From assembly GCF_041431415.1 (NCBI RefSeq), contig NZ_CP107845.1, forward strand, positions 7,936,001-8,000,000: a stretch of 64,000 nt of DNA, written 5' to 3'. A program made the translations under genes and the position numbers. The stretch is from Streptomyces sp. NBC_00513 (GTDB lineage Bacteria; Actinomycetota; Actinomycetes; Streptomycetales; Streptomycetaceae). Of this stretch, positions 49,386 through 63,497 are shown in pieces; the first letter of the stretch is position 1, and every line of letters begins with the position of its first letter. The notes under the pieces are model-generated. The model was not told the origin of the DNA, did not search any database, and saw only the letters and a list, made by a program, of their open reading frames with translations.

Positions 49386-50045
49386 TCAGTTCGTCATGGA
49401 CCGACAAAGGCGGCGGCCGACCTCGACCTGGGTGACCGCGGTCCGGTTCAGCAGGGCCGCCAGCGGCCCGGATTCGGTGCCTGCGTTCTGCCGGCGGGAC
49501 AGAGGAAGGCTTCCGTCGCCGGTTGTGACGCGACGTACGGACCCCGTGGGCAGGCCGTCCCAGTGCCTCTGATCCACGACCCGGGCGCCCCGACCGAGAG
49601 CCCGTGCATGGGTGGCCAGCAAGGTCTCGCCGCTGTGACCGGGCACCGTGGAATGCAGCATGATCTGGGACTTCGTGGCCCTGACCTCGACCAGCTGGCG
49701 CGGCCGGACCCTGCGGGCAGGCACGGAGTAGAGGTTCGCGTCGAAGGCGACGAGGCAGTCCTTGCCGACGTGGCGAAGGTGTCGCTGTGTGACTACATAA
49801 GGCGTCTGTGGCAGCGGCCGCAGGGCCACGTGGTCGCGGACCGCCCGCAGACCGATGATCTCGCCGTGGGTGCCGTGGACCTGCGCCCGCCGCAGCGGCA
49901 CCCAGGCGGTGAACGCGGCGTTCATTTCCTCGATGGACGAGAAGGCGCGTCCGCCAGAACATGATCGCGGACGATCAGCACCTGCCGCTCGACTCGGCCT
50001 TTCCCCGTGGGCCGGTAGGAGGCCAGCACGTCGGGGTCGAAGTCG
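49386..50045 (-). pseudogene. IstA (IS21 transposase) C-terminal remnant
   Basis: Reading leftward: DFDPDVLASYRPTGKGRVERQVLIVRDHVLA (end of the DDE core with catalytic Glu), a frameshift near 49930, then SSIEEMNAAFTAWVPLRRAQVHGTHGEIIG, VTQRHLRHVGKDCLVAFDANLYSVPARRV and a final QVEVGRRLCRSM. The N-terminal HTH and the first catalytic residues are missing. Confidence 0.8.
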
Positions 50046-50229: not shown

Positions 50230-51360
50230 TCAGGACAGGGTGGGCCCGTTGTCGGGGGCGTCGAGGAGACCGGTGCGGGTGGCGATGACGGCGGCCTGGA
50301 AGCGGTTCTCGGCGCCGAGGCGTTCGAGCAGGTCTGCGACACGACGTCGGATGGTGCGCAGCGACAGGCCCAGGCGGCGGGCGATTGTTTCGTCCTTGAG
50401 GCCTGCGGCGAGCAGTCTCAGCAGGGTGGCGTCGATGTCGCGGGCAGCCCGTTCGAGGCCTTCGGAGCCGAGAGTGGTGGGGTCGACGAAGACCGTGGCG
50501 TGGGTCCAGGCCTGCTCGAAGATGCCACGAAGGTAAGCGATGAGGTGGGGTTCTCGGACGACGACGGCGCCCCAGGTGGTGGTGTCGGCGGGCAGGAACG
50601 CGACAGTGTCATCAAAGATGATGAGCCGGCCGAAGAGTTCGTGGGCGGTGCGGTACTCGCCGCCCAGGGCGGTGGCCGCGGCGACGTAGGCCTGGGTGGG
50701 GCCGTGGAAGCGGACCGAGTGCTGCTGCAAGGTACGCATGCGGACACCGCGTTCGAGGAGGGCGCGGTCGCGGGCCAGGGCCGGTTCGAGGTTGGCGGGG
50801 TTGCGGGAGACGTCGCCGGGCTGACAGGCGATGACCTCGTCGCGACAGGCGGCGGCCTCCTGCTCCAGCAGTGCGTGGACTGCCGTGATGTCGGGCAGGA
50901 CTGTCACCGCGCCCGGGTCGGTATCCGGTATGTCGGAGTGGCTCATGCGTGTGAAGCGATGGATGTCCTCACACAGGGCGGCCAGGCGCTGCCGATGGGC
51001 GGCGGTTTCGGCAGCGATGCGGGCCTCGACTTCGGCGGTGAGGTCTGTGAGGGCTGTCTGCGGCAACAGGGCGCGTCCCTGATGGGGAGCTGTCGGGTTG
51101 AAGCGGACCAGGTGCCGCGTGGCCAGTCGGTCCAGTGCTGCGCCGGCTTCTCGTTCATCGATGTCGAGGTCTCCGGCGAGGGCAGAGGGATCTAGGTGGC
51201 CGTGCGCACGCACATGGTCATAGACGCGCCAGTCCAACTCCCAGTCGTCAGAGACGCCCGGAGTGTTTGGGAGGGGGGCACGCCCGGCGCTTTGCGCGGT
51301 CGCCGCCACCCCTCTTGCCATCGATGCATCTAAGTTGCCAGTTATGTCCGTATGAGGCAT
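50230..51360 (-). CDS. LuxR-type regulator with TrmB-like N-terminal domain
   Basis: 376 residues. An N-terminal winged-helix region (WRVYDHVRAHGHLDPSALAGDLDIDEREAGAALDRLATRHLVRF), a central helical and PLD-like sensor domain, and a C-terminal LuxR HTH (RLLAAGLKDETIARRLGLSLRTIRRRVADLLERLGAENRFQAAVIATRTG). This architecture is frequent next to Streptomyces peptide natural-product clusters. AGGGGG lies before the ATG at 51360. It is divergent from the small secreted protein and mini-ORF locus and is the best candidate for its pathway regulator. Confidence 0.9.
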   Translation of the reverse strand: MPHTDITGNLDASMARGVAATAQSAGRAPLPNTPGVSDDWELDWRVYDHVRAHGHLDPSALAGDLDIDEREAGAALDRLATRHLVRFNPTAPHQGRALLPQTALTDLTAEVEARIAAETAAHRQRLAALCEDIHRFTRMSHSDIPDTDPGAVTVLPDITAVHALLEQEAAACRDEVIACQPGDVSRNPANLEPALARDRALLERGVRMRTLQQHSVRFHGPTQAYVAAATALGGEYRTAHELFGRLIIFDDTVAFLPADTTTWGAVVVREPHLIAYLRGIFEQAWTHATVFVDPTTLGSEGLERAARDIDATLLRLLAAGLKDETIARRLGLSLRTIRRRVADLLERLGAENRFQAAVIATRTGLLDAPDNGPTLS

Positions 51361-51524: not shown

Positions 51525-51872
51525 GTGAACCGTTTTCTCCGCACTGCTGTCGGCGCCGCTGCGACCATGACCGCTCTGTATGCCCTCGCGACACCTGCCG
51601 GCGCCAGCGGACCGGCACCGCTCACGTCACCGAGCGGCGCGGGCGTGTCAACGGTCACCCGAGGGCTCCAGGCCGACCCATATCAGTCGCTCGGCGTCGC
51701 GCTCCTCAACACGTCCTGGGGTAACGACGACCCCGCCCCTCCGCGCCCCCTCGCGGACAGTGAACCCGCCCCCATTGAGGGCGCGGCCCCTGACGGCGGG
51801 CCCCACGGACGCCCCCCAGAGTTCGGATCCCCTCGGCGGCCGGCCGCCGGAGGGACCGGTACGCCGGAGTGA
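51525..51872 (+). CDS. Small secreted protein at the head of the peptide cluster
   Basis: 115 residues from a GTG with AAGGA 7 nt upstream (an ATG at 51510 is possible). A signal peptide of about 30 residues (MNRFLRTAVGAAATMTALYALATPAGA) is followed by a Pro/Gly/Ala-rich, low-complexity mature part with one compact segment (DPYQSLGVALLNTSWGNDD). No Cys. Family unknown. It lies between the LuxR gene and the mini-ORFs and may be co-induced with them. Confidence 0.6.
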   Translation: MNRFLRTAVGAAATMTALYALATPAGASGPAPLTSPSGAGVSTVTRGLQADPYQSLGVALLNTSWGNDDPAPPRPLADSEPAPIEGAAPDGGPHGRPPEFGSPRRPAAGGTGTPE

Positions 51873-51961
51873 GGCTTTCCGATTCTCCCGGAACGCACTC
51901 CGGATGACGGGCCAGAATTCCCGTCGATCAATCCAGCGAGAGCGAAAGGGGGTGTAGATAA

Positions 51962-52018
51962 ATGATCCGCGAGAACGCTCGCGCTCTTGGCCAGCTGATG
52001 GGCAAGTGCACCTCCTGA
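51962..52018 (+). CDS. 18-residue candidate precursor peptide, copy 1
   Basis: Encodes MIRENARALGQLMGKCTS. AAAGGGGGTG lies 8 nt upstream of the ATG, one of the strongest ribosome sites in the window. Codon use is normal for the genome. The peptide is amphipathic (RENARALGQLMGK) with a C-terminal Cys-Thr-Ser and has no aromatic residue, so it differs from the YYH/WxY precursors usual for P450-modified mini-RiPPs. A substrate or signalling role is inferred from the downstream genes. Confidence 0.72.
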   Translation: MIRENARALGQLMGKCTS

Positions 52019-52059
52019 ACCAAGTTCTTCAACGAAACCCCGAAAGGGGGTGTAGATAA

Positions 52060-52116
52060 ATGATCCGCGAGAACGCTCGCGCTCTTGGCCAGCTGATGGG
52101 CAAGTGCACCTCCTGA
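52060..52116 (+). CDS. 18-residue candidate precursor peptide, copy 2
   Basis: Identical in DNA and peptide sequence to copy 1, with its own identical ribosome site. Perfect identity at third positions means a very recent duplication or continued gene conversion, which would raise peptide dose. Followed after 9 bp by a strong hairpin. Confidence 0.72.
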   Translation: MIRENARALGQLMGKCTS

Positions 52117-52125
52117 GTCAACGAA

Positions 52126-52158
52126 AATGGCGGGGGCTCTTCCCGGGCCCCCGCCATT
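52126..52158 (+). terminator. Attenuator-type hairpin after the peptide genes
   Basis: AATGGCGGGGGC (52126-52137) pairs perfectly with GCCCCCGCCATT (52147-52158), 12 bp with a 9-nt loop, followed by TTCCTGTTC. It separates the mini-ORFs from the long operon on the same strand and would give far more peptide transcript than enzyme transcript, as in many RiPP clusters. Confidence 0.85.
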
Positions 52159-52223
52159 TCCTGTTCAATTCCCAGAATGCTCGCGTCGGCGTGCAAGAAC
52201 GTAAAAGAATACGAAGAGGCCAT

Positions 52224-53444
52224 ATGTCGCAGGGCTACCCCATCCCGTACAACCGTACGCTGAGCGAACAACCATTCCGCGAAGCCAAGCGCCTGGACGT
52301 CTCGGCCCTACAGAGCATGTGGCTCCCTTGGATCACGCTCGAGTCGGACCCAGCGAGCCATCTCCTCGCCCTCAATGCCTCCCTCACCTGGCACCAGTCG
52401 CGCAAGCGCGACGCCGCGGACACCCTCTCGCGGCCCTGGTTCTCGACTTACGCCGCGGGCGGTCTGCGGCCATGGGTCCTCGGTCAGGCGCGGGCCGCGG
52501 ACCAGATCGGATCCGACGTCGAGCTGTCGCCCGCCATGGCCGAACTGCGAGAGACGTGGCACGAGGAGCTGCACGGAGCCTCCCCGCTGCGCCGCCTACA
52601 GGCCACAGCCGTGCTGGGTAGCCTGACCGCCAGCCTGCCCCTGCTGGAAGCGCCGCGCCCGAACCCGGAGAGCCCCGACCCCCTGGAGCAGCACTACTGC
52701 TACGAGCACTCCAGGGTCGTACGGCAGCGCGACCTCCACCACGAGCCCAGCGTGTCCGCGCTGCGGATCCTCAGCAACAAGGCGACGGAGCCGGCGCTGC
52801 GCCTCCTTGTGACGGTCAGCTTCGCCGGCCACGTGCTGCGTAAGGAAAGCGACTTCGTCAGGGTCGATGAGGAACTCGCCCGGGCCGAGAGGATGTTGGG
52901 GCAGCTCGACGTGCACGAGCCGTGGCTCGCCGCTCTGGTGACCAGCCGGTTCCACCGGATGAAGGCACTCAGGTCGTGGCGGATGGAAGAGCGGGACACC
53001 ACACTGCTGGACCTGCGGTCGACACGCGATGCCGACAAGGCCCTCGCGGCGGAAGCTGAGAAGTCCGGCGACGAGCTCATCCGCCACCTGTGGCAGGAGA
53101 ACCACCGGCTTCTGCTGGAAGTCACCGTCAAGAACCAGGTTGGCCATGACCCGGACGAGATCGCGGATGTGATCGCGGAGATCGACAAGATCGAGCCGCA
53201 CTACGCCGAGAGCCAGTACTACATCGGCGAGGTGTTCGCCCAGGCCGGCCGGCTCTCTGAAGCGGCGGACCATTTCGTCCGCAGTGCTCAGGGCGGCGAA
53301 GCACGGGGCGCCGTGGGAGCTTTCAGGGCCTACGAATGCCAGCGGGAGCTTGGTGACCGTGAATCTGCGATCGAGTGTCTTGACCTCTTGGAAGACCTCG
53401 ACCCGGCCGCCGACGCACAGGCTTATCGAACCGAATTGAACTGA
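52224..53444 (+). CDS. Helical, TPR-ending protein of unknown function
   Basis: 406 residues. The N-terminal half is all-helical without a recognised domain (MSQGYPIPYNRTLSEQPFRE...; PLEQHYCYEHSRVVRQRD). The last about 100 residues contain tetratricopeptide-like repeats (PHYAESQYYIGEVFAQAGRLSEAADHFVRSAQ; GAFRAYECQRELGDRESAIECLDLLEDLDP). GAAGAGG precedes the ATG. As the first gene after the attenuator it may be a peptide-binding scaffold or leader-recognition protein for the 18-mer. That role is inferred from position and TPR content only. Confidence 0.75.
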   Translation: MSQGYPIPYNRTLSEQPFREAKRLDVSALQSMWLPWITLESDPASHLLALNASLTWHQSRKRDAADTLSRPWFSTYAAGGLRPWVLGQARAADQIGSDVELSPAMAELRETWHEELHGASPLRRLQATAVLGSLTASLPLLEAPRPNPESPDPLEQHYCYEHSRVVRQRDLHHEPSVSALRILSNKATEPALRLLVTVSFAGHVLRKESDFVRVDEELARAERMLGQLDVHEPWLAALVTSRFHRMKALRSWRMEERDTTLLDLRSTRDADKALAAEAEKSGDELIRHLWQENHRLLLEVTVKNQVGHDPDEIADVIAEIDKIEPHYAESQYYIGEVFAQAGRLSEAADHFVRSAQGGEARGAVGAFRAYECQRELGDRESAIECLDLLEDLDPAADAQAYRTELN

Positions 53445-53489: not shown

Positions 53490-54776
53490 ATGATTTCACC
53501 AAAGATGTGGTGGACCCAGAACGTTCCGCGCTCCGCTACTCAGCGCAGGTTCGTTCTGGCCAGTCTTATTGACAGCGCGGGTACGGGGGTCCACTTCACG
53601 ATCTTCCCTCTCTACCTCATCCTTATCGTCCACATCTCCGCCGTGCAGGTCGGCACCGGGCTGCTCCTGGCGAGCCTCGTCGGGATGCTGATGAACATCC
53701 CGGTCGGCAGGGCCTGCGACCTCGTAGGGCCGCGAGCAGTGCTGGCGCTCGGCTATGCCGCTCAGGCGCTGGTGGCCGGTCTCCTCATCCTCATCAGGGA
53801 TGTGGTGGCGTTCACCCTGCTGGTCACGCTCGGCAAAGTTGCGTCCCAGGCGGTGCGCCTGGGACGCAACGTATTGGTGGCCGGCGCGGGAGGCGACCAG
53901 CGCAACGTCCTACGCGCACAGATGAACGCGTCGTCCAATATCGGTCTCGCCGCGGGGATGGGAATCAGCGCGATCATCCTGGTCGACGCCTCGCCGGCCG
54001 CCTTCGAGGTCGGCTTCCTGATCAACTGCGCCAGCTTCGTGTCGGCGGCCGTGGTCCAGTGCTGGGCCAAGGTCCCTGCCAAGGTCCCTGCCACGGCACC
54101 GCGCGACCGGGCCGGAGGGCGGGTGCGCGCCGCGCTCAAGGACGTCAAGTACTGCTCGGTCGGCCTGCTCAACGGTCTTCTGGGCTTCCACCAGCAGGTG
54201 TTCTTCCTGGGCCTTCCACTGTGGATCGCCGCGCACGGCGGTGTACCGCGCTCGCTCACGTCGCTGGTGTTCTTCGTGAACTTCGTACTCACCGTGCTCC
54301 TGCAGGTGCGTGCTTCCTCCACTGTCCACAACTATCGCGACGCCCTGGGTGCCTGGAGGAAGTCCGGCCTGTGGCTGGCGCTCGGGTTCGGAATACTGGC
54401 CGCCTTCTCGCATTCCTCTCCCTGGCTGGTGGCCTTGGCCGTTGTCGTCATGGGAACGCTCCTCACCTTCGGCGAGATCTGGTACGGGGCCGCGGAGTTC
54501 GAGCTGTCGGTGGCGCTGGCCCCGCGTACCAGCCTCGGCCTATACCAAGGGGTCTTCGAACTCGGCTCGGACGCGTTCGCGATGGCAGGACCGCTCCTCG
54601 CCACGCTCGTGTGCGTCTCCATGGGACAGGCGGGTTGGGCCACTCTCGCCTTGGTGTATCTGGCCTTCGCCCTCCTGGCTCCACGCGTCGTCGAATGGGC
54701 TGCTCGTGGCAGAGAGCAGGCGGAACAGCCCCTGGACCAAGCGGTGACGGCCCCAGGCGCGGGAGCGGCCGCGTGA
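53490..54776 (+). CDS. MFS transporter, probable exporter
   Basis: 428 residues with 12 predicted membrane helices (LASLIDSAGTGVHFTIFPLYLILI as TM1; MNIPVGRACDLVGPRAVLALGY covering the MFS motif A region, partly degenerate). Similar to multidrug or peptide-natural-product exporters of the DHA1 type. ATG at 53490 with GGTGAGAG upstream. Its stop overlaps the next GTG by one codon frame (GTGA). Likely exports the mature product or gives self-resistance. Confidence 0.85.
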   Translation: MISPKMWWTQNVPRSATQRRFVLASLIDSAGTGVHFTIFPLYLILIVHISAVQVGTGLLLASLVGMLMNIPVGRACDLVGPRAVLALGYAAQALVAGLLILIRDVVAFTLLVTLGKVASQAVRLGRNVLVAGAGGDQRNVLRAQMNASSNIGLAAGMGISAIILVDASPAAFEVGFLINCASFVSAAVVQCWAKVPAKVPATAPRDRAGGRVRAALKDVKYCSVGLLNGLLGFHQQVFFLGLPLWIAAHGGVPRSLTSLVFFVNFVLTVLLQVRASSTVHNYRDALGAWRKSGLWLALGFGILAAFSHSSPWLVALAVVVMGTLLTFGEIWYGAAEFELSVALAPRTSLGLYQGVFELGSDAFAMAGPLLATLVCVSMGQAGWATLALVYLAFALLAPRVVEWAARGREQAEQPLDQAVTAPGAGAAA

Positions 54777-55387
54777 GAGGGCCGCGTAGCGTGGTGACGC
54801 TCGGACCGGCGGACACCGACGCCCACCACGTCGCCCGCGCCCTCGGCCCTGTCCAGCTCGTCGAGTCCTTTCCACGCGCCATGGAGGTCGCGTGGCAGGA
54901 GGACTCATACGCCCTGATCTGCGCCGGCTACACGGCCCGCGACGACCGAGCGATATCCGACTCATGGGTCGGCCTGCACTTCCGGTACGTCGGGCGGATG
55001 GAGATCTCGCGCACCTGGGTGCGCAGGACGAAGCCGATGTGCGTCGCTGTCAACCGCGACCGCGTGGTGCACCCCGACGAAGTCGGCTCCGTGGCACTGC
55101 ACCCCTCCACGACGGTCTTCGCGGACCTGCACCTCCCCGCCGCGGCCGACAGGACGTTCGTCGACGCCAAACCCCTCGCCGTCGACCTCGCGGCCTCCGG
55201 CGCCGTCGACGCGTGCATCGGCTCGGTCGACGTGGTCCGCAGGGTCCGACACCTGGAGATCACCGAGGTCTTCGAGCCCCAGATGCTCTGGTGCCTGTAT
55301 CGGCGGGCGAGCGGCCACGCACCGAAGGCCTCCACGACTACGACGCCCACCGCTGAGCCGGCAGGAAGGCAGGAGACCGGCGCATGA
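54773..55387 (+). CDS. Prephenate-dehydratase-like (type II periplasmic-binding-fold) protein
   Basis: 204 residues: VVTLGPADTDAHHVARALG near the start (compare the LGPxGTxS entry of PheA), ...DSWVGLHFRY..., HPSTTVFAD, then FVDAKPLAVDLAASGAVDACIGSVDV. The overall order resembles prephenate dehydratase domains, but the catalytic Thr-Arg-Phe motif is not present, so it is unlikely to dehydrate prephenate. The GTG overlaps the MFS stop. A ligand-binding or novel lyase role is possible. Confidence 0.6.
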   Translation: MRGPRSVVTLGPADTDAHHVARALGPVQLVESFPRAMEVAWQEDSYALICAGYTARDDRAISDSWVGLHFRYVGRMEISRTWVRRTKPMCVAVNRDRVVHPDEVGSVALHPSTTVFADLHLPAAADRTFVDAKPLAVDLAASGAVDACIGSVDVVRRVRHLEITEVFEPQMLWCLYRRASGHAPKASTTTTPTAEPAGRQETGA

Positions 55388-56352
55388 ACACCAGCGACAC
55401 CCCCGGGCGCGACGGCGGATCCCCGAGCGTCGCAGTCCTCGGAGGCGGCCTGATGGCCACCGAGATCATCAACTGTCTCGCACGGTCCGGGTTGACCGTG
55501 CGGGTCTTCAACCGGTCGCCCGAGCGGGTCCAGCACCTCGCAGCAGAGCGCGTGACCATCTGGCCAACGGCCGCACAGGCCGCCGACGAGGCGGATGCCG
55601 TCCTCTCGTGTGTGGCCGATGACGAGGCCAGTCAGGCGGTGTGGACGGGCCCGGCCGGTGCGCTGGCCGTGATGCGCGCCGGCACTATCGCAGTCGAACT
55701 GTCCACCGTCTCGGCAGACCATGTGTCGACCTGGGCAGCGGTCTGCCGCAGCCACGGAGTGCGCCCTCTCGACGTTGCCGTGACCGGGAGCGTGCCACGA
55801 GCGCGCCAGGGCACCCTCATCGGGTTCGCCGGAGGCGACGCGGAGGACCTCACCCAGGCACGCCCGGTGATCGCGGCCTTCACCGAACATGTCATCCATT
55901 TCGGAGCCTCCGGCGCGGGCATGCGCTACAAGCTGGCCCACAACCTCGCCGCGGCAACAGCGCTGCTGGGCCTCGCCGAGTCCCTGAGCCTCGCTGCGGC
56001 GGCCGGCCTCGACACCGCTCAGGCGCTCACCACGCTCAGCACGTACGGCTGGGCGGCGCCGGTGGCCCAATCCATGGGCCCCCGCATGCTCTCCGGCGAC
56101 CACAGCACCATCATGTGCAGCCTTGACACCATCGCCAAGGACATCCGCTATGCACTGCGCTCGCTCGCCGACCGCGGGGGCGATGACGCGGGCAAGGCCA
56201 GTCTGCCGCTCACGCGGACGGTTCTGGACCGGATGGAGACCGCTATCCGTGCCGGCGGCACCGGCCAGGAGATGAGCGCCGTCTGCCTCGCCTACGAGCC
56301 GTGGCTGCCGGCACCTCTGCAGAGCGCCGTACGGCCGGAGTTCGCCGTATGA
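55384..56352 (+). CDS. 3-hydroxyisobutyrate-dehydrogenase-like NAD(P) oxidoreductase
   Basis: 322 residues. Rossmann start VAVLGGGLMATEIINCLARSG (residues 16-36; the canonical GxGxMG ends with Ala), ELSTVSADHV, the substrate loop DVAVTGSVPRARQGTLIGFAGG and the catalytic region GMRYKLAHNLAAA with Lys183 and Asn187 conserved. Acts on a beta-hydroxy acid or, as in related imine reductases, on an imine. ATG overlaps the previous stop (ATGA). Confidence 0.87.
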   Translation: MNTSDTPGRDGGSPSVAVLGGGLMATEIINCLARSGLTVRVFNRSPERVQHLAAERVTIWPTAAQAADEADAVLSCVADDEASQAVWTGPAGALAVMRAGTIAVELSTVSADHVSTWAAVCRSHGVRPLDVAVTGSVPRARQGTLIGFAGGDAEDLTQARPVIAAFTEHVIHFGASGAGMRYKLAHNLAAATALLGLAESLSLAAAAGLDTAQALTTLSTYGWAAPVAQSMGPRMLSGDHSTIMCSLDTIAKDIRYALRSLADRGGDDAGKASLPLTRTVLDRMETAIRAGGTGQEMSAVCLAYEPWLPAPLQSAVRPEFAV

Positions 56353-57521
56353 CGCTACGCACGGAACAGACCTGGCACGGGTCGTTCTTCGACCGCACCC
56401 GCTACGTGCCCGAAGAGGCGCGCGAACAGATCAGCGGACGCCTGCACAGCTACCTTGATGAGGCAGCGGGGTTCATCAGCCGCGCGTCGGATAAGGCCGG
56501 GCTCTTCCTGGCCGGCTCGCTGGCCCGCTCCGAGGCTGCCGTCGTACAGAACTCCACTGGCGCTTACGAGTTGGCCTCCGACCTCGATTTCGTCCTCGTG
56601 GTACCCAGCAACGACGAGGAGTCGGGTCTGGTCCAGCTGCTCATAGACCACCTGCGCCGCGTCGATGCCGGCTTCCTGCCGACGTGCTTCCGCGTCCACG
56701 AGGGCCACCTTCACCGTGTCCGCTCCTACTTCGGAAACGACCTGTGGCACGGCGCGCGACGCCCGCTGCGAACCCGCCCCGGTTCTCCTGCGCCCGTGCG
56801 TCCCCCGGTCGGCACACAGGAAGCCATCGAGGTGGTGACCCACCAGCTGGGCAACTACCTCCTGCTGCCAGAGCCCGGCATGCGTGGAGCCGCCGTCGTC
56901 CGAGACTCCCGTGTGCATCAGCTCAGGAAACTTCTTCTGGAGCTTCTGCGCGCCACTGCACCGGGCATCGAGCTGCGCGAGAGCCGATACGCGGACCTCC
57001 TCGACGCCTATACCCGCCCTGTGGGACCGGTCCCGGCAGCTGTGGTCAGCGCCCTGGTCAGAGCCCGGGAGCTGTCCTTGGCTAACCCCTTCGGCCCCGA
57101 GGAGGGCCACGCACTGGTGCGACATCTGCTGATCGCGCTGCTGGGTGGCGACTTGGGCACGAACAGGCGCGATGGGCAACTGCCGAGTCTGCTGCGTGAA
57201 CGGGCCCGCCGGACAGACGAGTTGCTGCACCTCTACCAGCTCTGCCTGATCGGTCACTTCTTCGAGCTCTTCGCCGAGCCCGTCACGGCCCGCGAGGCGC
57301 ACAGGGCCACCACCGACATCCTGCGCAAGCTCGATCCCGGGGAGCTGTTCGAGGCACGACAGGCGATCACGCGCATCCAGAACACCCCAGACACACCGGC
57401 GGCGCTCGGCGACACCCTCACGCTCCTGCGTCTGGACTACTACCACTATCTGGGCCCGTACAACTTCGGTCGCACCGATCGGCCCGGCTACACCACCGCC
57501 ACTCGAAAGGCCACTCGATGA
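56349..57521 (+). CDS. Nucleotidyltransferase-fold protein
   Basis: 390 residues. The N-terminal part has FLAGSLARSEAAV...ELASDLDFVLVV: Gly56-Ser57 and Asp78/Asp80 form the GS...DxD signature of polymerase-beta-type nucleotidyltransferases (aminoglycoside adenylyltransferases, GlnE-like AMPylases). The rest is helical. It probably transfers a nucleotide to the peptide, a pathway intermediate or a protein. ATG at 56349 overlaps the previous stop; a longer frame upstream is excluded by that coupling. Confidence 0.72.
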   Translation: MTLRTEQTWHGSFFDRTRYVPEEAREQISGRLHSYLDEAAGFISRASDKAGLFLAGSLARSEAAVVQNSTGAYELASDLDFVLVVPSNDEESGLVQLLIDHLRRVDAGFLPTCFRVHEGHLHRVRSYFGNDLWHGARRPLRTRPGSPAPVRPPVGTQEAIEVVTHQLGNYLLLPEPGMRGAAVVRDSRVHQLRKLLLELLRATAPGIELRESRYADLLDAYTRPVGPVPAAVVSALVRARELSLANPFGPEEGHALVRHLLIALLGGDLGTNRRDGQLPSLLRERARRTDELLHLYQLCLIGHFFELFAEPVTAREAHRATTDILRKLDPGELFEARQAITRIQNTPDTPAALGDTLTLLRLDYYHYLGPYNFGRTDRPGYTTATRKATR

Positions 57522-57871
57522 ACCAAGCCACGACCACGGCGTTCCCGGCGTGGATACGGACGATGCCACAGGCGGATGTGACGTTCCCCGGCGCGGTGGG
57601 CAACCTCCTCTCGGGCCGACACGGACAGGTCGTCTTCTGGACCTTCGACCAGGGCGGCGAGGTTCCCCCGCACGCACACGGGCCGCAGCTGGGCGTCGTA
57701 CTCACCGGTGGCATCCGCATGAGCCGGGGAGGCACGGAGGTGGAGTACCGGGCAGGCCAGTGGTTCGACCTCGCCGACGGGGAGACCCACGCGGCGCACA
57801 TCCGTCCCGGCACCCTCGTCATCGAGGTCTTCGAGGAAGCGGACAGGCACCGTGAACGTACGGCCAACTGA
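57518..57871 (+). CDS. Single-domain cupin
   Basis: 117 residues. Metal-binding motif 1 PPHAHGPQLG (His52, His54) and motif 2 around DGETHAAHIRPG (His91), with FTGGIRMSRGGTEVEYRAGQWFDL between them. Could be an isomerase, epimerase or metal-dependent lyase on a small substrate. Overlaps the preceding stop by 4 nt and the next start by 20 nt. Confidence 0.82.
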   Translation: MNQATTTAFPAWIRTMPQADVTFPGAVGNLLSGRHGQVVFWTFDQGGEVPPHAHGPQLGVVLTGGIRMSRGGTEVEYRAGQWFDLADGETHAAHIRPGTLVIEVFEEADRHRERTAN

Positions 57872-59114
57872 GCCCGCCGAGCAGGCCGGCCCGCAGCTCA
57901 CCCTCCTGACGGCCGACCGTGTGATCGTCGGCAGAGACTCCCGCGTCATCGCTAACGGTGCCGTCCTCGTCAGCGGCGCGAGCATCGCCTGGGTAGGTGA
58001 GCGGAACCGCGCCCCGCACATGGGCGCCGGTACGACCGAGATCCCGCTGCCCGGCTGCACTCTCATGCCAGGCCTCGTCGAAGGCCATGCCCACCTCTGC
58101 CTGGACGGCGGTACCGACCCGTTCGGAACCTTGGCCAGCTCAAGTCCCGGTGTCCGTGACGAAGTCGTCCGCAGGGCGGCCGAGCGCATGATCCGGGCCG
58201 GTATCACGTCCGTACGGGATCTCGGGTGCCCGGCGGGAGCAGACACGGTACTGCGGGAGGCCGTCCTGGCCGGTCGGTTCGACGGCCCGGCCTTGTACAG
58301 CTCCGGCGTTCCGCTCACTTCGGTGGGCGGCCACTGCTCCGTCATGGGTGGCGCCATCGCCGGGGTCGAGGACGTCGCGGACCTGGTGGCCGCGAACCAC
58401 AGTGGCGGGGCAACCTGGACCAAGGTCATGGCGACAGGCGGCTTTCTGACATCCCCCGTCTCCTCGCCCTACCTCCCGCAGCTCCCCGCCGACATCCTGC
58501 GAGCGGCCGTGGCCGCGTCGAGGCGCCTGGGCATGCGCGTCGCCGCCCACGCTCACGGCAGAGCGGGCATCGAGGCGGCATTCGCGGTTGGGGTCGACTC
58601 GATCGAGCACTGCACGTGGATGACCGAGGGCGGATTCGACGTTGACGAAGCACTCGTGGCCAAGCTGGCCAGGCACGGCGTCGCCGTGGGCGCGACGGTC
58701 AACTCGAAGGCGTGCGCGGCCACCGGGCGGCTGCCCTGGCACGAGCGCCGACGCCAACTGCGCCTGATGCGCGCGGCGGGAGTACGCCTGATCGTCAGCA
58801 CCGACTGCGGGATCTCGGGAACCCCGCACGACGACCTTCCGGCATCACTGGTCTGCTACCTGGACGCCGGATTCACCACGCTGCAGATCCTCGAGGCGGC
58901 CACCGCCGGCAACGCGGATGCCCTCGGTATCGGCGCCGACGCCGGTCGGCTCGCACCCGGTCTCCGCGCTGACGTCCTCGCCGTGCGCGGAAACCCCCTC
59001 GAAGACCTGGATCGCCTCAGGGGCACGATGCTCGTCATGGGCGGCGGCCGTCTGATCCCCAGCCCGACCGAGCACCTCAGCGCCCCTCCCGGAGGAGTTT
59101 TCGAATGTCAGTGA
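57852..59114 (+). CDS. Metal-dependent amidohydrolase, dipeptidase/prolidase-like
   Basis: 420 residues, GTG start. Amidohydrolase fold with VEGHAHL (His79, His81), carboxylated-lysine candidate Lys191 in WTKVMATGG, HAHG (His233, His235), His253 in IEHC and catalytic Asp318 in VSTDCG. This set matches the Xaa-Arg/Xaa-Pro dipeptidase and carboxypeptidase branch (Sgx9260/Cc2672-type) that cleaves N-acyl or dipeptidyl substrates. In this operon it could remove flanking residues from a processed peptide. Overlaps the cupin gene by 20 nt. Confidence 0.85.
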   Translation: MNVRPTEPAEQAGPQLTLLTADRVIVGRDSRVIANGAVLVSGASIAWVGERNRAPHMGAGTTEIPLPGCTLMPGLVEGHAHLCLDGGTDPFGTLASSSPGVRDEVVRRAAERMIRAGITSVRDLGCPAGADTVLREAVLAGRFDGPALYSSGVPLTSVGGHCSVMGGAIAGVEDVADLVAANHSGGATWTKVMATGGFLTSPVSSPYLPQLPADILRAAVAASRRLGMRVAAHAHGRAGIEAAFAVGVDSIEHCTWMTEGGFDVDEALVAKLARHGVAVGATVNSKACAATGRLPWHERRRQLRLMRAAGVRLIVSTDCGISGTPHDDLPASLVCYLDAGFTTLQILEAATAGNADALGIGADAGRLAPGLRADVLAVRGNPLEDLDRLRGTMLVMGGGRLIPSPTEHLSAPPGGVFECQ

Positions 59115-59887
59115 AGCAGGAGTACGCGAACCTCAGTCCGCTACAGACCCGCATCAAGATCCACAGCGAGTACAGCGAGCGCCAGGACGACGTCGAGGAG
59201 GCGGTGTACCACGTCATCCGCCCCTCCCTTTCCGACAGCCTCCTGGACGTCGGATGCGGCACCGGCAGCTTCCTCAAGCGCCTCAGGGCCTGGGGGGTCG
59301 GCGGGGAATTGGTCGCCTTGGACAGCTCCGACGCTGCCGTGAGCGCGGTCGCGGCCCTCGGGGTTGCAGACGCGGTGTGTGCCGACGCAACGCGACTGCC
59401 CTTCAGCGACGGTTGGTTCGGCATACTGACCGCCCGTCACATGCTGTATCACGTGGAGGAACCTGACACCGCCCTGCACGAGTTCGCCCGCGTGCTGCGG
59501 CCCGGTGGCCGGGTCGCGGTGAGCGTCAACCACGCCCGAACCGTGCCCTTGACTACCGAGCTGGTCTTCGCCGCCATGGAGGAGGCGGGTGCGCATCCGG
59601 TGTCCTCGGCGGCCCACGTCAGCTCGGACGACCTGGCCCACCGCATGACAGCCGTCTTCCACGACGTCCAGTCGGAGCGCTTCGACAACGCCCTGGTGTT
59701 CGATCAGCCGGCCCCGCTTATCGCCTTCGCGCGTGCGCTCCTCGGCATCTACGGTCTGCACCCGGACGACGAGCGCCACTCCGAGGCAGCTGCGGGCATC
59801 GGCCGCCGGGCGGAACGGTGGTTTGCGGACCACCAGGGCCCCTTGCGCGACCCGAAGGGCTACACGATCTGCCACGGAAGGGCCTGA
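59105..59887 (+). CDS. Class I SAM-dependent methyltransferase
   Basis: 260 residues. SAM motif SLLDVGCGTGSFLKRLRAWG (Gly50-Gly54), motif II/III region VCADATRLPFSDGWFGILTARHMLYHVEEPDTALHEFARVLRPGGRVAVSVNH, as in Methyltransf_11 enzymes. O-, N- or C-methylation of the pathway intermediate. Good ribosome site GGAGGAG; overlaps the preceding gene by 10 nt. Confidence 0.9.
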   Translation: MSVKQEYANLSPLQTRIKIHSEYSERQDDVEEAVYHVIRPSLSDSLLDVGCGTGSFLKRLRAWGVGGELVALDSSDAAVSAVAALGVADAVCADATRLPFSDGWFGILTARHMLYHVEEPDTALHEFARVLRPGGRVAVSVNHARTVPLTTELVFAAMEEAGAHPVSSAAHVSSDDLAHRMTAVFHDVQSERFDNALVFDQPAPLIAFARALLGIYGLHPDDERHSEAAAGIGRRAERWFADHQGPLRDPKGYTICHGRA

Positions 59888-59888
59888 C

Positions 59889-61133
59889 ATGAGTGTGTCC
59901 ACTTCCCCCATGACGTGCCCGGTCACCGGCGCGGGTGGGCCGAGCGCCCCTGCGTACCCGTTCTCGGACCTCCACACACTCGACCTGGAGCCGGAGTATG
60001 CACAGCTGCACCAGCAAGGCGGCGGTCTGCACCGGGCTACTATGCCCTACGGCGGTCAGGCGTGGCTCGCGATCCGCTACGAGGATGTACGGCAGATCCT
60101 GGCCGACCCCCGGTTCTCGCGCTCCGCCGCCAACACCGGGCAGGCGCCGCGGCTGTCCTCCGAGGTACTGCCCAGCAGTTCCATGATGGCCATGGACGCC
60201 CCCGAGCACACACGGATACGCCGCATCCTGGCCAAGCACTTCACCGTTCCCCGGATCGAAGCGCTCCGCGGACGGGCCACCACCCTTGTCGACCAGCTGA
60301 TCGACAACATGACCGGCAGCAAGCCTGCTGATCTGCTGACAGGCCTCGCTCTGCCGTTCCCCCTCCTCATGGTCTGCGAGCTCCTCGGCGTCCCGGCGGA
60401 GGGACGGGACACGTTCGCGGACTTCTCCGCCGCCCTGCGGTCGAGGACCATGTCCCAGCGGCACCGTGAAGCCGCCAGGAATCAGTTCGAGGAGTGGACG
60501 GCCCGGCATCTGCTCTTCGCGCGGGGCGCGGAGGCCGGCGGCAGCCTTCTCCACGAGCTCCTCGAACCCGACGCCGTCGGCCGAAGCCCACTGGACGTGC
60601 GCGAGGCCGTCGACGTGGCCATCGCCTTACTGGTCGGTGGTGTCGGCAGCCCCAGCACCCTGCTAGCCAGCGGAATCTGCACCCTCCTTCGCCGCCCGGA
60701 CGTCGTCCGCGCCATCGTCGCCGACGAGGCCCTGATCCCAGCCGCGGTCGAGGAACTCATGCGGCTGGTACCGGTGGGTGTCGGCGGCGGGTTCGTCCGT
60801 GTGGCGACCGAGGACCTTACGCTCTCCGGCACCCTCGTCAGACGCGGCGAGGCGGTGGTTCCCGCCATGCCCGCGGCCAACCGTGACCCCAGCGTCTTCC
60901 CCGACCCCGACGACTTCAAGCTCGACCGGCCGACCACTCCCCGCCACCTGGGCCTCGGCCACGGGACCCACCACTGCATCGGCGCACACCTGGCCCGGGT
61001 CGAACTCCAGACGGCCATCGGCCGTTTGTTCTCACGGCTGCCCGGGCTGCGTCTGGCAGTGCCCGAGGACCAACTGCGCTGGCACCGCGGCCTCGTCGTT
61101 CGTGAACTCAAGGAGCTTCCGGTCACATGGTGA
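59889..61133 (+). CDS. Cytochrome P450 with a TTA codon and atypical I helix
   Basis: 414 residues. C-helix HTRIR (107-111), ExxR at E289-R292, heme ligand Cys363 in LGHGTHHCIGAHLARVE; the usual Phe seven residues before the Cys is Leu. The I-helix reads ALLVGGVGSPSTLL, so the oxygen-activating acid-alcohol pair (usually D/E-T) is replaced by Gly-Ser-Pro-Ser. Codon 247 (60627-60629) is TTA, the bldA-dependent leucine codon, which ties expression to development. It starts one base after the methyltransferase stop; a ferredoxin follows. Confidence 0.92.
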   Translation: MSVSTSPMTCPVTGAGGPSAPAYPFSDLHTLDLEPEYAQLHQQGGGLHRATMPYGGQAWLAIRYEDVRQILADPRFSRSAANTGQAPRLSSEVLPSSSMMAMDAPEHTRIRRILAKHFTVPRIEALRGRATTLVDQLIDNMTGSKPADLLTGLALPFPLLMVCELLGVPAEGRDTFADFSAALRSRTMSQRHREAARNQFEEWTARHLLFARGAEAGGSLLHELLEPDAVGRSPLDVREAVDVAIALLVGGVGSPSTLLASGICTLLRRPDVVRAIVADEALIPAAVEELMRLVPVGVGGGFVRVATEDLTLSGTLVRRGEAVVPAMPAANRDPSVFPDPDDFKLDRPTTPRHLGLGHGTHHCIGAHLARVELQTAIGRLFSRLPGLRLAVPEDQLRWHRGLVVRELKELPVTW

Positions 61134-61372
61134 CGCACGCACAGGAAACGTCGTGGCGGATCCACCTCGACTCGGCACGCTGCACCGGTGCGGGGACCTG
61201 CTCAGCCCTGGCAGGGCACGTGTTCCAGATGGATCTGCGGGAGACCAGAGTCATCGCCGCGGTAACAGCACCGGACTCAAGGACGCTGGACGCCACCCAG
61301 TGCTGCCCCACCGCAGCCATCACGATCCGGGACGGCCGCACCGGCGCACTGATCGCAGGCGAGGACGGCTGA
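61127..61372 (+). CDS. [3Fe-4S] ferredoxin, P450 partner
   Basis: 81 residues. Cys19 and Cys25 in CTGAGTC, and Cys59-Cys60-Pro61 in CCPTAAI, give the Cys set of small Streptomyces 3Fe-4S ferredoxins. The CX5C spacing and the Cys59 alternative are typical. Starts inside the P450 stop region (7-nt overlap) and surely transfers electrons to the P450. Confidence 0.92.
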   Translation: MVTHAQETSWRIHLDSARCTGAGTCSALAGHVFQMDLRETRVIAAVTAPDSRTLDATQCCPTAAITIRDGRTGALIAGEDG

Positions 61373-61374
61373 CG

Positions 61375-62526
61375 ATGACGGACAATCCACACTCCTACAA
61401 GTGGACGATGTACCCCGGGAAGATCCCCCTCAGCTTCGGGGACATGGACTTCGATCCGGACCCGAGGGTGCTGGACGCGATCCAGGAACGCATGAAATGG
61501 CCGCTCGCCTACCCTCCCCCGCATCGTTCGAGCGGGGTGGCGAAGCGCATCGGCGACTACTACCTCGACCACTACGGACTGCACATTCCCTCCGACTCCC
61601 TCTGGCTGGGAACAGGCTGTCTGTCGCAGAGCTTCCACGTCCTCCGCTCCCTCGCCGCACAAGGAGACGAAGTCCTCTACTGGTCACCGGCGTTCAAGCA
61701 CATCCGCAGCGCGATCGAGGCGTCGGGAGCGACCCCCGTCCCGCTCGACGCCGGCCCTGCCATCAGCCACACCTCGCTGGAGGAGGCGATCACTCCGCGG
61801 ACGAGAGCCGTCTATCTCGTCAATCCGCACAACCCGACGGGGCGAAGCTACTCCCGCCCGGAACTGGAAGCCGTCCGAGACGTGGCCGAGCGCCATGGGC
61901 TGGTCGTGGTGACCAATGAACTGCACAGCCGTCTCGTCCTCGACGGGCAGCACGTGCCCTTCGCCTCGCTCGGCGGGACCGCCGCAGAGCTGAGTATCAC
62001 TCTCTCTGGCGCTTCGAAGTCCCACAACCTCGCAGCGGTCGGCGGCTCCTTCGCCTTCTCGCACTCCTCCGTGTTGCTCGGCAAGGTGATGGCCGACTCG
62101 GCTCACTACTGCCAAGAGGCAACAGGCCTGCAACAGGCCGCGTTGAGCGCGGCATACGACGGCGACAGCCCCTGGCTGCTCGACGCGCGCGACCGGCTGA
62201 GGCAGGCCCGTGACCACCTGATATCCGCCCTGCATACAGGGCTGCCGCGCCTGAAGATCAGAGTCCCGCAGGCCACGTACTTCATCTGGGCGGACTTCAG
62301 CGCTTATTTGAGCGCGGGGGAGTCGGCCCACCAGGTGCTCGACGAGCAGTGCGGTGTCATCGCTGCCGCGGGGGAGTCCTTCGGCGCGCCACCGACCTGG
62401 GCCCGGCTCTCCTACTCCCTGACGGACGATGTACTGGCCCGAGCTGCCAGACTGATCATCGCAGGGCTCACACACCCTTCCCGCAGTCCGGAACCCACAA
62501 CAGCTTCCCACAAGGAGGACAAATGA
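61375..62526 (+). CDS. PatB/MalY-type PLP enzyme with an Asp-to-Asn change
   Basis: 383 residues. Fold-type I aminotransferase/C-S lyase with FGDMDFDPDPRVLDAIQERM, NPHNPTGRSYS (150-156) and PLP lysine Lys215 in SGASKSHNLAAVGG. In MalY/PatB the PLP pyridine nitrogen is held by Asp in SDEIH; here residues 180-184 read TNELH, so the Asp is Asn181 (AAT at 61915). This should weaken quinonoid chemistry and favour another reaction, or regulation. ATG 2 bp after the ferredoxin stop. Confidence 0.87.
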   Translation: MTDNPHSYKWTMYPGKIPLSFGDMDFDPDPRVLDAIQERMKWPLAYPPPHRSSGVAKRIGDYYLDHYGLHIPSDSLWLGTGCLSQSFHVLRSLAAQGDEVLYWSPAFKHIRSAIEASGATPVPLDAGPAISHTSLEEAITPRTRAVYLVNPHNPTGRSYSRPELEAVRDVAERHGLVVVTNELHSRLVLDGQHVPFASLGGTAAELSITLSGASKSHNLAAVGGSFAFSHSSVLLGKVMADSAHYCQEATGLQQAALSAAYDGDSPWLLDARDRLRQARDHLISALHTGLPRLKIRVPQATYFIWADFSAYLSAGESAHQVLDEQCGVIAAAGESFGAPPTWARLSYSLTDDVLARAARLIIAGLTHPSRSPEPTTASHKEDK

Positions 62527-63497
62527 AGGTTCTAATTTCCGGCGGAGCCGGATATATCGGCAGCACGATCGCTTCGGCGTGTCTCGACGGAGGGATCACC
62601 CCGGTCATCCTTGACAGCCTCATCACCGGGAAGCGCGAGTTCACGGCGGGTCGTGAATTCTACGAAGGAGACATCGCTGACGGGAAGGTCGTGGATCGCG
62701 TCTTCCGCGACCACCCGGACATCCGAATGGTCATCCACTGTGCCGCCCTCATCGTCGTCCCTGAATCGGTCGCCGACCCGGTCGGATACTACGAGGCGAA
62801 CGTCGCCAAAAGCCTGGCCTTCGTCTCTCATCTCATCCGAAACAACTGCACGCGACTGATCTTCAGCTCCTCGGCGTCCATCTACGGCAGCAGTGATGAC
62901 TTCACCGTCGACGAGCAGTCACCGCTGGACCCGCAGAGTCCGTACGCGCGCACCAAGGCAGTCTGCGAGGGCATGTTCGCCGACATCGCGGAGGCCGGGC
63001 ACCTCCGTGTCCTCTCGCTGCGCTACTTCAACCCCATCGGGGCCGACCCCGCGATGCGTACTGGGCTCCAACTGGAGCGGCCAAGTCATGCTCTGGGCAA
63101 GCTCATTGAAGCGCATGAGGCCGGTACGGCCTTCCAGGTCACCGGTACGAACTACCTGACCAGGGATGGATCCGGTATCCGGGACTACATCCACGTATGG
63201 GATCTGGCCACCGCGCACGTCGCCGCCGCCCGCATGTTCGACGGTTCCGACGACATCACGTCCACAGCCATCAACCTGGGGACCGGCGACGGCACCACGG
63301 TCCGTGAGCTGGTGAACTCTTTCAACGACATCGTCGACACACCGGTAAAGGTGACCGACGCCCCGCCCCGCCCCGGAGACATCGCTGGCGCGTACACACG
63401 CAGCGGCCGCGCGACAGAACTCCTGGCCTGGACACCGAAGTACACCGTCGCCGACGGCATCCGCCACTCCCTCACATGGATGCGCATCCGCTCCTAG
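62523..63497 (+). CDS. UDP-glucose 4-epimerase-like (GalE) SDR enzyme
   Basis: 324 residues, extended SDR: LISGGAGYIGSTIASACLDGG, catalytic Ser/Tyr/Lys in IFSSSASIYGSS and SPYARTKAVCEGM, and a substrate loop with YFNPIGADP. Similar in length to GalE proteins (about 330). AAGGAGG before the ATG; overlaps the preceding stop by 4 nt. Provides a hexose-nucleotide change (glucose/galactose or a related sugar), perhaps for a sugar moiety of the product. Last gene of the operon. Confidence 0.88.
   Translation: MKVLISGGAGYIGSTIASACLDGGITPVILDSLITGKREFTAGREFYEGDIADGKVVDRVFRDHPDIRMVIHCAALIVVPESVADPVGYYEANVAKSLAFVSHLIRNNCTRLIFSSSASIYGSSDDFTVDEQSPLDPQSPYARTKAVCEGMFADIAEAGHLRVLSLRYFNPIGADPAMRTGLQLERPSHALGKLIEAHEAGTAFQVTGTNYLTRDGSGIRDYIHVWDLATAHVAAARMFDGSDDITSTAINLGTGDGTTVRELVNSFNDIVDTPVKVTDAPPRPGDIAGAYTRSGRATELLAWTPKYTVADGIRHSLTWMRIRS

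Follow-up and report, generated by a model that had tools for sequence, protein, structure and literature searches.

The region analyzed here, referred to as the window, is a stretch of 64,000 nucleotides from the 8.6 Mb genome of Streptomyces sp. NBC_00513 (G000:C1:7936001-8000000). It contains two copies of a mini-gene, a hairpin and a co-directional operon, with a regulator-like gene on the opposite strand, as follows:

50230..51360, minus strand, regulator-like protein (putative role), with relatives beside the TPR loci of genomes G819 (39%) and G825 (33%)
51943..52018, plus strand, mini-gene copy 1: ribosome site (AGGGGG) and 18-codon ORF (ATG at 51962, stop codon at 52016-52018)
52041..52116, plus strand, mini-gene copy 2: ribosome site and identical 18-codon ORF (ATG at 52060, stop codon at 52114-52116)
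52125..52159, plus strand, 13-bp perfect hairpin, terminator- or processing-like, with a weak T run (arms 52125-52137 and 52147-52159)
52224..53444, plus strand, 406-aa TPR-family protein, predicted all-helical solenoid, proposed partner of the peptide
53490..54776, plus strand, MFS transporter, proposed exporter
54740..55387, plus strand, protein of approximately 200 aa with a prephenate-dehydratase-like (PDT-like) fold
55384..56352, plus strand, 3-hydroxyisobutyrate dehydrogenase-like NAD(P) enzyme
56349..57521, plus strand, 390-aa protein with a nucleotidyltransferase-like (NT) motif (Pfam match weak, E 0.035, and limited to one relative)
57518..57871, plus strand, small cupin
57852..59114, plus strand, amidohydrolase of the arginine-carboxypeptidase/Xaa-Pro dipeptidase type
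59105..59887, plus strand, class I methyltransferase, with no match in the stretches of Actinobacteria bacterium OK074 that were read
59889..61133, plus strand, cytochrome P450
61127..61372, plus strand, ferredoxin-like frame (named by sight)
61354..62526, plus strand, PLP aminotransferase/PatB-like C-S lyase fold
62523..63497, plus strand, protein that we take to be sugar-nucleotide epimerase-like, with matches in OK074, G422 and G825

ORF 1 (51962-52018) and ORF 2 (52060-52116) encode the same peptide, MIRENARALGQLMGKCTS. The initial annotation had reported two 76-bp copies encoding one 18-aa peptide, each with a strong ribosome site, and re-reading of positions 51943-52116 confirmed this: the 76 nt from 51943 and 52041 through the stop codon are identical in both copies, within a repeat unit of 81 nt (98% identity) with a start-to-start spacing of 98. 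The block from the ribosome site to the start codon had two matches in the window, which were the mini-gene copies, and two matches were reached by none of 100 shuffles. The perfect hairpin described between the mini-genes and the operon is present but measures 13 bp and not 12 bp; it lies 8 nt 3' of the second mini-ORF stop, with a folding energy of -30.6 kcal/mol (z -4.8). An imperfect palindrome of 27 nt was also seen at 51816-51867, approximately 75 nt 5' of copy 1, and an apparent C-terminal fragment of an IS21-type transposase was recognized by sight at 49386-49925 on the minus strand.

The operon behind the hairpin is co-directional, as had been noted, and has 12 genes instead of the 11 counted before, the ferredoxin-like frame at 61127, between the P450 and PLP enzyme genes, having been added. 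Ten of the 12 operon proteins were scanned against Pfam and NCBIfam, the ferredoxin-like and epimerase-like ones lying outside the scan, and among these 10 no RiPP recognition element and no LanB, YcaO, radical SAM or MNIO protein was found, nor any PEARL/lantibiotic dehydratase or other ligase. Sequence profiles (Pfam, NCBIfam and PDB) gave nothing convincing for the PDT-like protein (two matches only, E 0.05 and 0.14), and its prephenate dehydratase fold was recognized by structural comparison (best match 3mwb, E 4e-9).

At 0.001 the 406-aa protein matched no family, and the TPR matches in its C-terminus were weak. Its AlphaFold model (mean pLDDT 82, from a six-row alignment) is an all-helical solenoid, and the top Foldseek matches of this model are TPR-type proteins, none at E <= 0.001. 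At least 6 proteins, query included, matched it in a word-based search of a database of 5.8 billion proteins, the OK074 relative being absent among the matches listed. Among 392 genomes of the same genus, a full-length relative was found only in the window genome and in OK074 (G014); 11 of the 13 matching genomes matched C-terminal positions only (within 291-394) and were left out. A relative in G825 was upheld in a genome search (E 3.5e-19), and a search of 21 relatives of G825 yielded another full-length relative in G819 (in the same search, G804 was judged generic, with an 845-aa frame, and G797 was left out). Plasmid searches with the window TPR, window NT and OK074 TPR proteins gave no match, and the G825 TPR protein retrieved three records representing two distinct loci, one on a Kitasatospora purpeofusca plasmid and one in Streptomyces NBC_00723/NBC_00015 (hereafter NBC); with the TPR proteins of these two loci as queries, the plasmid searches returned nothing beyond their own records. 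No relative was found in viral contigs. In a blastp comparison, whose E-values are lenient because the set comprised 15 proteins, identity to the window protein was 47% for OK074, 29% for G819 (6e-25), 26% for G825 (2e-10), and 26% for K. purpeofusca (1e-5). The window and NBC proteins did not match directly in this set and were linked through G825 (28%, 2e-23) and OK074 (25%, 4e-5).

A mini-ORF homologue upstream of a relative of the 406-aa protein, which the initial annotation had put forward as a check, was found in OK074, where MIREESRDLTAMLYKACA is encoded at the same place 5' of the TPR gene. This peptide also has 18 aa, shares 7 identities and the MIRE start with the window peptide, and is preceded by the ribosome site GGAAGGGAG and followed, 12 nt past the stop, by a 13-bp hairpin; a single copy was seen, versus two in the window. 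The start-anchored match scored 30 and the best of 4973 control segments 26; because it exceeds all of these controls, we conclude that it is the reading frame of this stretch that is conserved. A pattern search with the mini-ORF recovered both copies in the window, the one in OK074 and a single unrelated site, and of two scans of genome contigs for relatives the former found none and the latter OK074 only. The predicted conservation of the C-terminal CTS did not hold: the OK074 peptide ends in YKACA, those of K. purpeofusca and G819 contain no Cys, that of G825 contains two, and for NBC the outcome varies with the frame selected.

Immediately 5' of its TPR gene, each of the 6 distinct loci opened (the window, OK074, G825, K. 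purpeofusca, NBC and G819) has a short ORF of 15-31 codons with a ribosome-site motif and a strong hairpin, the choice of ORF being ambiguous in NBC (NBC_00723 and NBC_00015 carry the same region and were counted once; the loci of P0002 to P0006 are outside the 6). The hairpin starts 8, 12, 13, 27 or 38 nt after the mini-ORF stop at the 5 clear loci, and 1 or 82 nt after it in NBC, according to the frame. The G825 unit consists of the ORF MEHETWELLEDEVEISTGAADCWTCLIDSGA with the ribosome site AAGGAGG, a 17-bp hairpin, two TPR-family frames and, directly 3' of these, an M17 leucyl aminopeptidase (L032 10474-12021) that is a candidate leader protease; an MFS gene and a PLP-enzyme-like frame (by sight) stand upstream. 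On the K. purpeofusca plasmid, MAEQTQVNDDIYTDLEGTEAISASVHLD is followed by a terminator with a T run, the TPR frame (probably starting at L037:8671), genes for two hypothetical proteins of 96 and 296 aa (L037 9960-11127; weak DoxX match of the 296-aa protein, E 0.018), and an MFS gene. In NBC, the TPR gene is immediately preceded by a terminator of -35 kcal/mol, and there are two candidates for the mini-ORF, of 22 and 23 aa. G819 has the smallest unit, in which MAENKDFDVLMSEDY, with the ribosome site GGAGGGGAGG, is followed by a hairpin of -32.8 kcal/mol, the TPR gene and then an MFS gene, and the operon lacks any modification enzyme. Two frames named by sight lie upstream of it: an aldo-keto-reductase-like one in divergent orientation (L046 5704-6894) and a radical-SAM-like one approximately 5 kb away (L046 542-1873).

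Apart from those of the window and OK074, the peptides share no obvious sequence. When 11 window proteins (the ferredoxin-like one left out) were used as queries, G825 matched at its TPR locus through the TPR protein only, K. purpeofusca through the TPR and MFS proteins, G819 through the TPR protein and a PLP-type match 10 kb away, and NBC through none. An MFS gene lies less than 2 kb from the TPR gene at 5 of the 6 loci; the exception is NBC, where none is annotated within 18 kb in an incomplete annotation. The MFS proteins of the window, OK074 and K. purpeofusca match each other and those of G819 and G825 do not match them; since they fall into such unlike groups, the exporter may not be a strict part of the unit. 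The enzymes nearby also vary, from a P450, a PLP enzyme and an amidohydrolase in the window to the M17 aminopeptidase and PLP-enzyme-like frame of G825.

Hairpins are common in such genomes. The layout was compared with its background: we defined a rule (an ORF of 14-35 codons starting with ATG, with a ribosome-site motif and, at most 40 nt past the stop, one strong single hairpin) and ran it on both strands of 12 sequences (512,714 strand-bases, of which approximately 10 kb were counted twice). There were 187 short ORFs with a ribosome-site motif, 13 of them with a strong hairpin after the stop, and these 13 matches comprised 6 directly 5' of the 6 TPR-family genes and 7 elsewhere; by our arithmetic, the background rate predicts approximately 0.04 matches across the 2.7 kb that precede these TPR genes, for a rule whose thresholds were fixed after all 6 loci were known. 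An earlier, stricter rule run on 10 sequences gave 4 matches, of which 3 lay at TPR genes; it did not pick up K. purpeofusca or NBC. The qualitative pattern had been recorded before the G819 locus was examined, and G819 then fitted it.

The enzyme core of the window operon is separable from the peptide. A core with the PDT-like fold, cupin, dehydrogenase, NT-like protein, amidohydrolase, P450 and epimerase-like protein is common to four genomes (window 54740-63497; L016, L023 and L026). Relatives of the NT protein were found in 2 of 394 genomes of the class (window and G422), 2 of 394 of the family (window and G825) and 2 of 392 of the genus (window and OK074). OK074 shares the MFS, PDT-like, dehydrogenase, NT, cupin, amidohydrolase and epimerase-like genes with the window and has a P450, a ferredoxin-like frame and a PLP enzyme upstream; no methyltransferase match was found in the stretches read. 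The G422 core comprises P450, PDT-like, dehydrogenase, NT, cupin, amidohydrolase, methyltransferase and epimerase-like genes, and the 32 kb read there contain no match to the window TPR or MFS protein and no MIRE-like ORF; the G422 genome has no TPR relative at 1e-5. Likewise, no TPR match and no mini-ORF were found in 20 kb around the G825 core, which adjoins NRPS-like genes (named by sight) and lies approximately 4.6 Mb from the peptide-hairpin-TPR unit of the same genome, and the short-ORF-plus-hairpin rule had zero matches in both core stretches. No core gene was recognized next door at 4 of the 6 TPR loci, with one PLP-type match 10 kb away in G819. Transposase-like remnants and a nitroreductase/SagB-like gene were seen by sight to the right of the cluster on L017 (578-1691 and 2438-3532, both minus strand).

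Since the core occurs elsewhere without TPR gene or peptide, its enzymes are not obligate partners of the peptide. The initial annotation had tied the peptide to the enzymes of the operon, and the G422 and G825 cores, homologous and lacking a recognizable mini-ORF, speak against that tie, being the very kind of counter-evidence that the annotation had named; we thus rejected the peptide as an obligate substrate of the PDT-type core. Candidate modifying enzymes are present in the window operon, belonging to a core that also occurs without the peptide, and none is present in the G819 operon. The peptide travels with the TPR protein and not with the enzyme core. The core is probably a pathway for an unusual amino acid in its own right, and its position beside NRPS-like genes in G825 suggests that such an amino acid may be its product.

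A short ribosomal peptide gene, with predicted translation and a conserved frame, stands in an operon with partner genes, as in RiPP clusters. Of the proposal that the mini-gene encodes a RiPP precursor, the part that survives is supported by the conserved peptide gene in OK074 and by the layout recurring at 6 TPR loci, which suits a precursor produced in excess of its partner; the part that made the peptide the substrate of the whole operon is not supported. The conserved peptide gene in a recurring unit is real, and a precursor role for its product is plausible. A TPR family accompanied by a tiny, variable peptide gene, a usual transporter and changing enzymes would fit a RiPP-like module with a TPR holder, of which the peptide is likely the precursor or scaffold; among the open-licence papers listed in literature searches, none described this TPR family together with a short peptide. 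Judging from sequence, there is about an even chance that the peptide is a TPR-bound, enzyme-matured precursor or scaffold made from the recurring short ORF-hairpin-TPR unit, of which the two window ORFs are likely translated copies of the peptide gene. The strong ribosome sites would give high-dose translation of the 18-mer, to which the duplicated mini-gene would add, and the hairpin would reduce read-through into the TPR gene, leaving the peptide in excess over the TPR protein. The solenoid may then bind and hold the peptide, neighbouring enzymes that differ by locus would modify it, and the MFS protein would export the product.

Other readings of the unit were weighed against this one. A short ORF followed by a terminator-like hairpin and an operon is also the classic anatomy of a transcription attenuator, in which ribosome stalling on the mini-ORF, in response to a cue such as an antibiotic or an amino acid, would set termination at the hairpin before the TPR and MFS genes. 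The great differences among the peptide sequences and the downstream MFS gene would fit such a leader, for which lmrC provides a precedent in the accessible text of PMC8546547. However, no competing antiterminator pairing was found in the 6 leaders: in a simple duplex test against mononucleotide shuffles only, 184, 160, 197, 54, 128 and 89 of 200 shuffles paired at least as well with the 5' arm of the hairpin. Two identical tandem copies would be unusual for a leader peptide, and since the hairpins start 8-38 nt past the stop at the 5 clear loci, the footprint of a ribosome at the stop codon would reach no more than a few of their base pairs. We regard an attenuator as unlikely. TPR solenoids are the peptide receptors of RRNPP systems, and the weak sequence matches and helical solenoid model of the TPR protein agree with a receptor of this type, so that the peptide might be a signal: after export and perhaps cleavage it would re-enter the cell and bind the TPR protein, and this protein would then control the cluster. 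The G819 unit, with peptide, TPR and MFS genes near a SARP-like regulator (by sight), would suit this logic, as would a SARP-like frame close to the OK074 locus (by sight) and, close to the NBC locus, a regulator annotated as BTAD. Signaling is nevertheless quite unlikely: scanning of TPR proteins detected neither a DNA-binding nor a phosphatase domain in those covered, the 5 clear peptides have by sight no hydrophobic export signal, and an M17 aminopeptidase or a P450 operon is not known to belong to RRNPP systems.

For the window operon only, the 18-mer could be a sacrificial scaffold on which the amino acid of the prephenate-type core is assembled, or to which it is joined, as in pearlins. 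The core accompanies the peptide in the window and OK074, the locus tags 17880 (TPR) and 17900 (NT) of Streptomyces sp. NPDC002659 suggest the same order from the tags alone, the amidohydrolase resembles carboxypeptidases, and an unusual amino acid may be what the core makes beside the NRPS-like genes of G825. A pathway of this kind seems improbable, however, with no PEARL/lantibiotic dehydratase or other ligase in 10 of the 12 operon proteins and no recognized core gene next door at 4 of the 6 TPR loci. Finally, the repeat could be an RNA or DNA element with an incidental frame. The window copies are identical at every base and, because of this, show no sign of coding constraint within the window, yet OK074 keeps the length, the start and 7 of the 18 residues in DNA that differs from that of the window, the layout recurs, and Rfam gave no match in the window at gathering scores, making a non-coding element very improbable.

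Returning to the peptide as a TPR-bound precursor or scaffold, a wider proposal, which we make tentatively and consider rather doubtful, is a new class of ribosomal peptides in Streptomycetaceae, with a 15-31-residue peptide, a hairpin, a peptide-holding TPR solenoid, an MFS exporter and interchangeable enzyme sets; the set used here would be for a prephenate-derived amino acid, coupling the 18-mer to chemistry that stands beside an NRPS elsewhere. Peptides of 15-18 residues are easily overlooked by gene calling, and because no known RiPP maturase was recognized beside the mini-gene, mining rules based on maturases would skip such clusters. If the precursor or scaffold reading is right, the TPR gene would be a search handle for hidden peptide products.

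Several known systems resemble parts of the locus. The core has in common with the bacilysin-type prephenate pathway (BacA/BacB) a prephenate-dehydratase-like fold, to which the presumed similarity of the PDT-like protein to BacA would correspond, as well as a cupin, a dehydrogenase, a PLP enzyme and an MFS gene; unlike that pathway, it shows no ligase and adds P450, ferredoxin-like, amidohydrolase and nucleotidyltransferase-like proteins. In Streptomyces lincolnensis, according to the accessible text of PMC8546547, lmrC is controlled by a uORF and a premature terminator in response to antibiotics, and, as in the window, the cluster gene is preceded by short ORFs and a terminator hairpin; antiterminator conformations are predicted for lmrC, whereas no competing pairing was found in the window. 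The biphenomycin (bip) and pbs clusters, as far as described in the portions available of PMC12707348 and PMC12026744, likewise have a short precursor, in several copies in some strains, with an MFS gene and a gene annotated as TPR; no MNIO or radical SAM match was found in the 10 window proteins scanned. The biphenomycin "TPR" protein is described there as a manganese arginase, with EEHxE, DxHxD and DIDLD motifs (PMC12707348, PMC12026744); these motifs are absent from the window 406-aa protein, the one protein checked for them, and a BipC-type arginase identity was therefore ruled out. In the available parts of the cacaoidin and metanodin papers, a TPR protein is mentioned once in each. The ammosamide (amm) pathway, a pearlin system, uses four PEARLs and a TldD/E protease, none of which was seen in the 10 window proteins scanned, and its scaffold peptide AmmA (6756 Da) is far longer than the window 18-mer (PMC12715798, accessible sections). 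Both systems combine a ribosomal peptide with a transporter and with a protein annotated as TPR, which in amm is AmmC2, of unassigned role in those sections and likened to the window protein by description only (PMC12715798). If the peptide and the TPR protein act together as proposed, TPR proteins of scaffold-peptide pathways, AmmC2 among them, would gain a role that can be tested.
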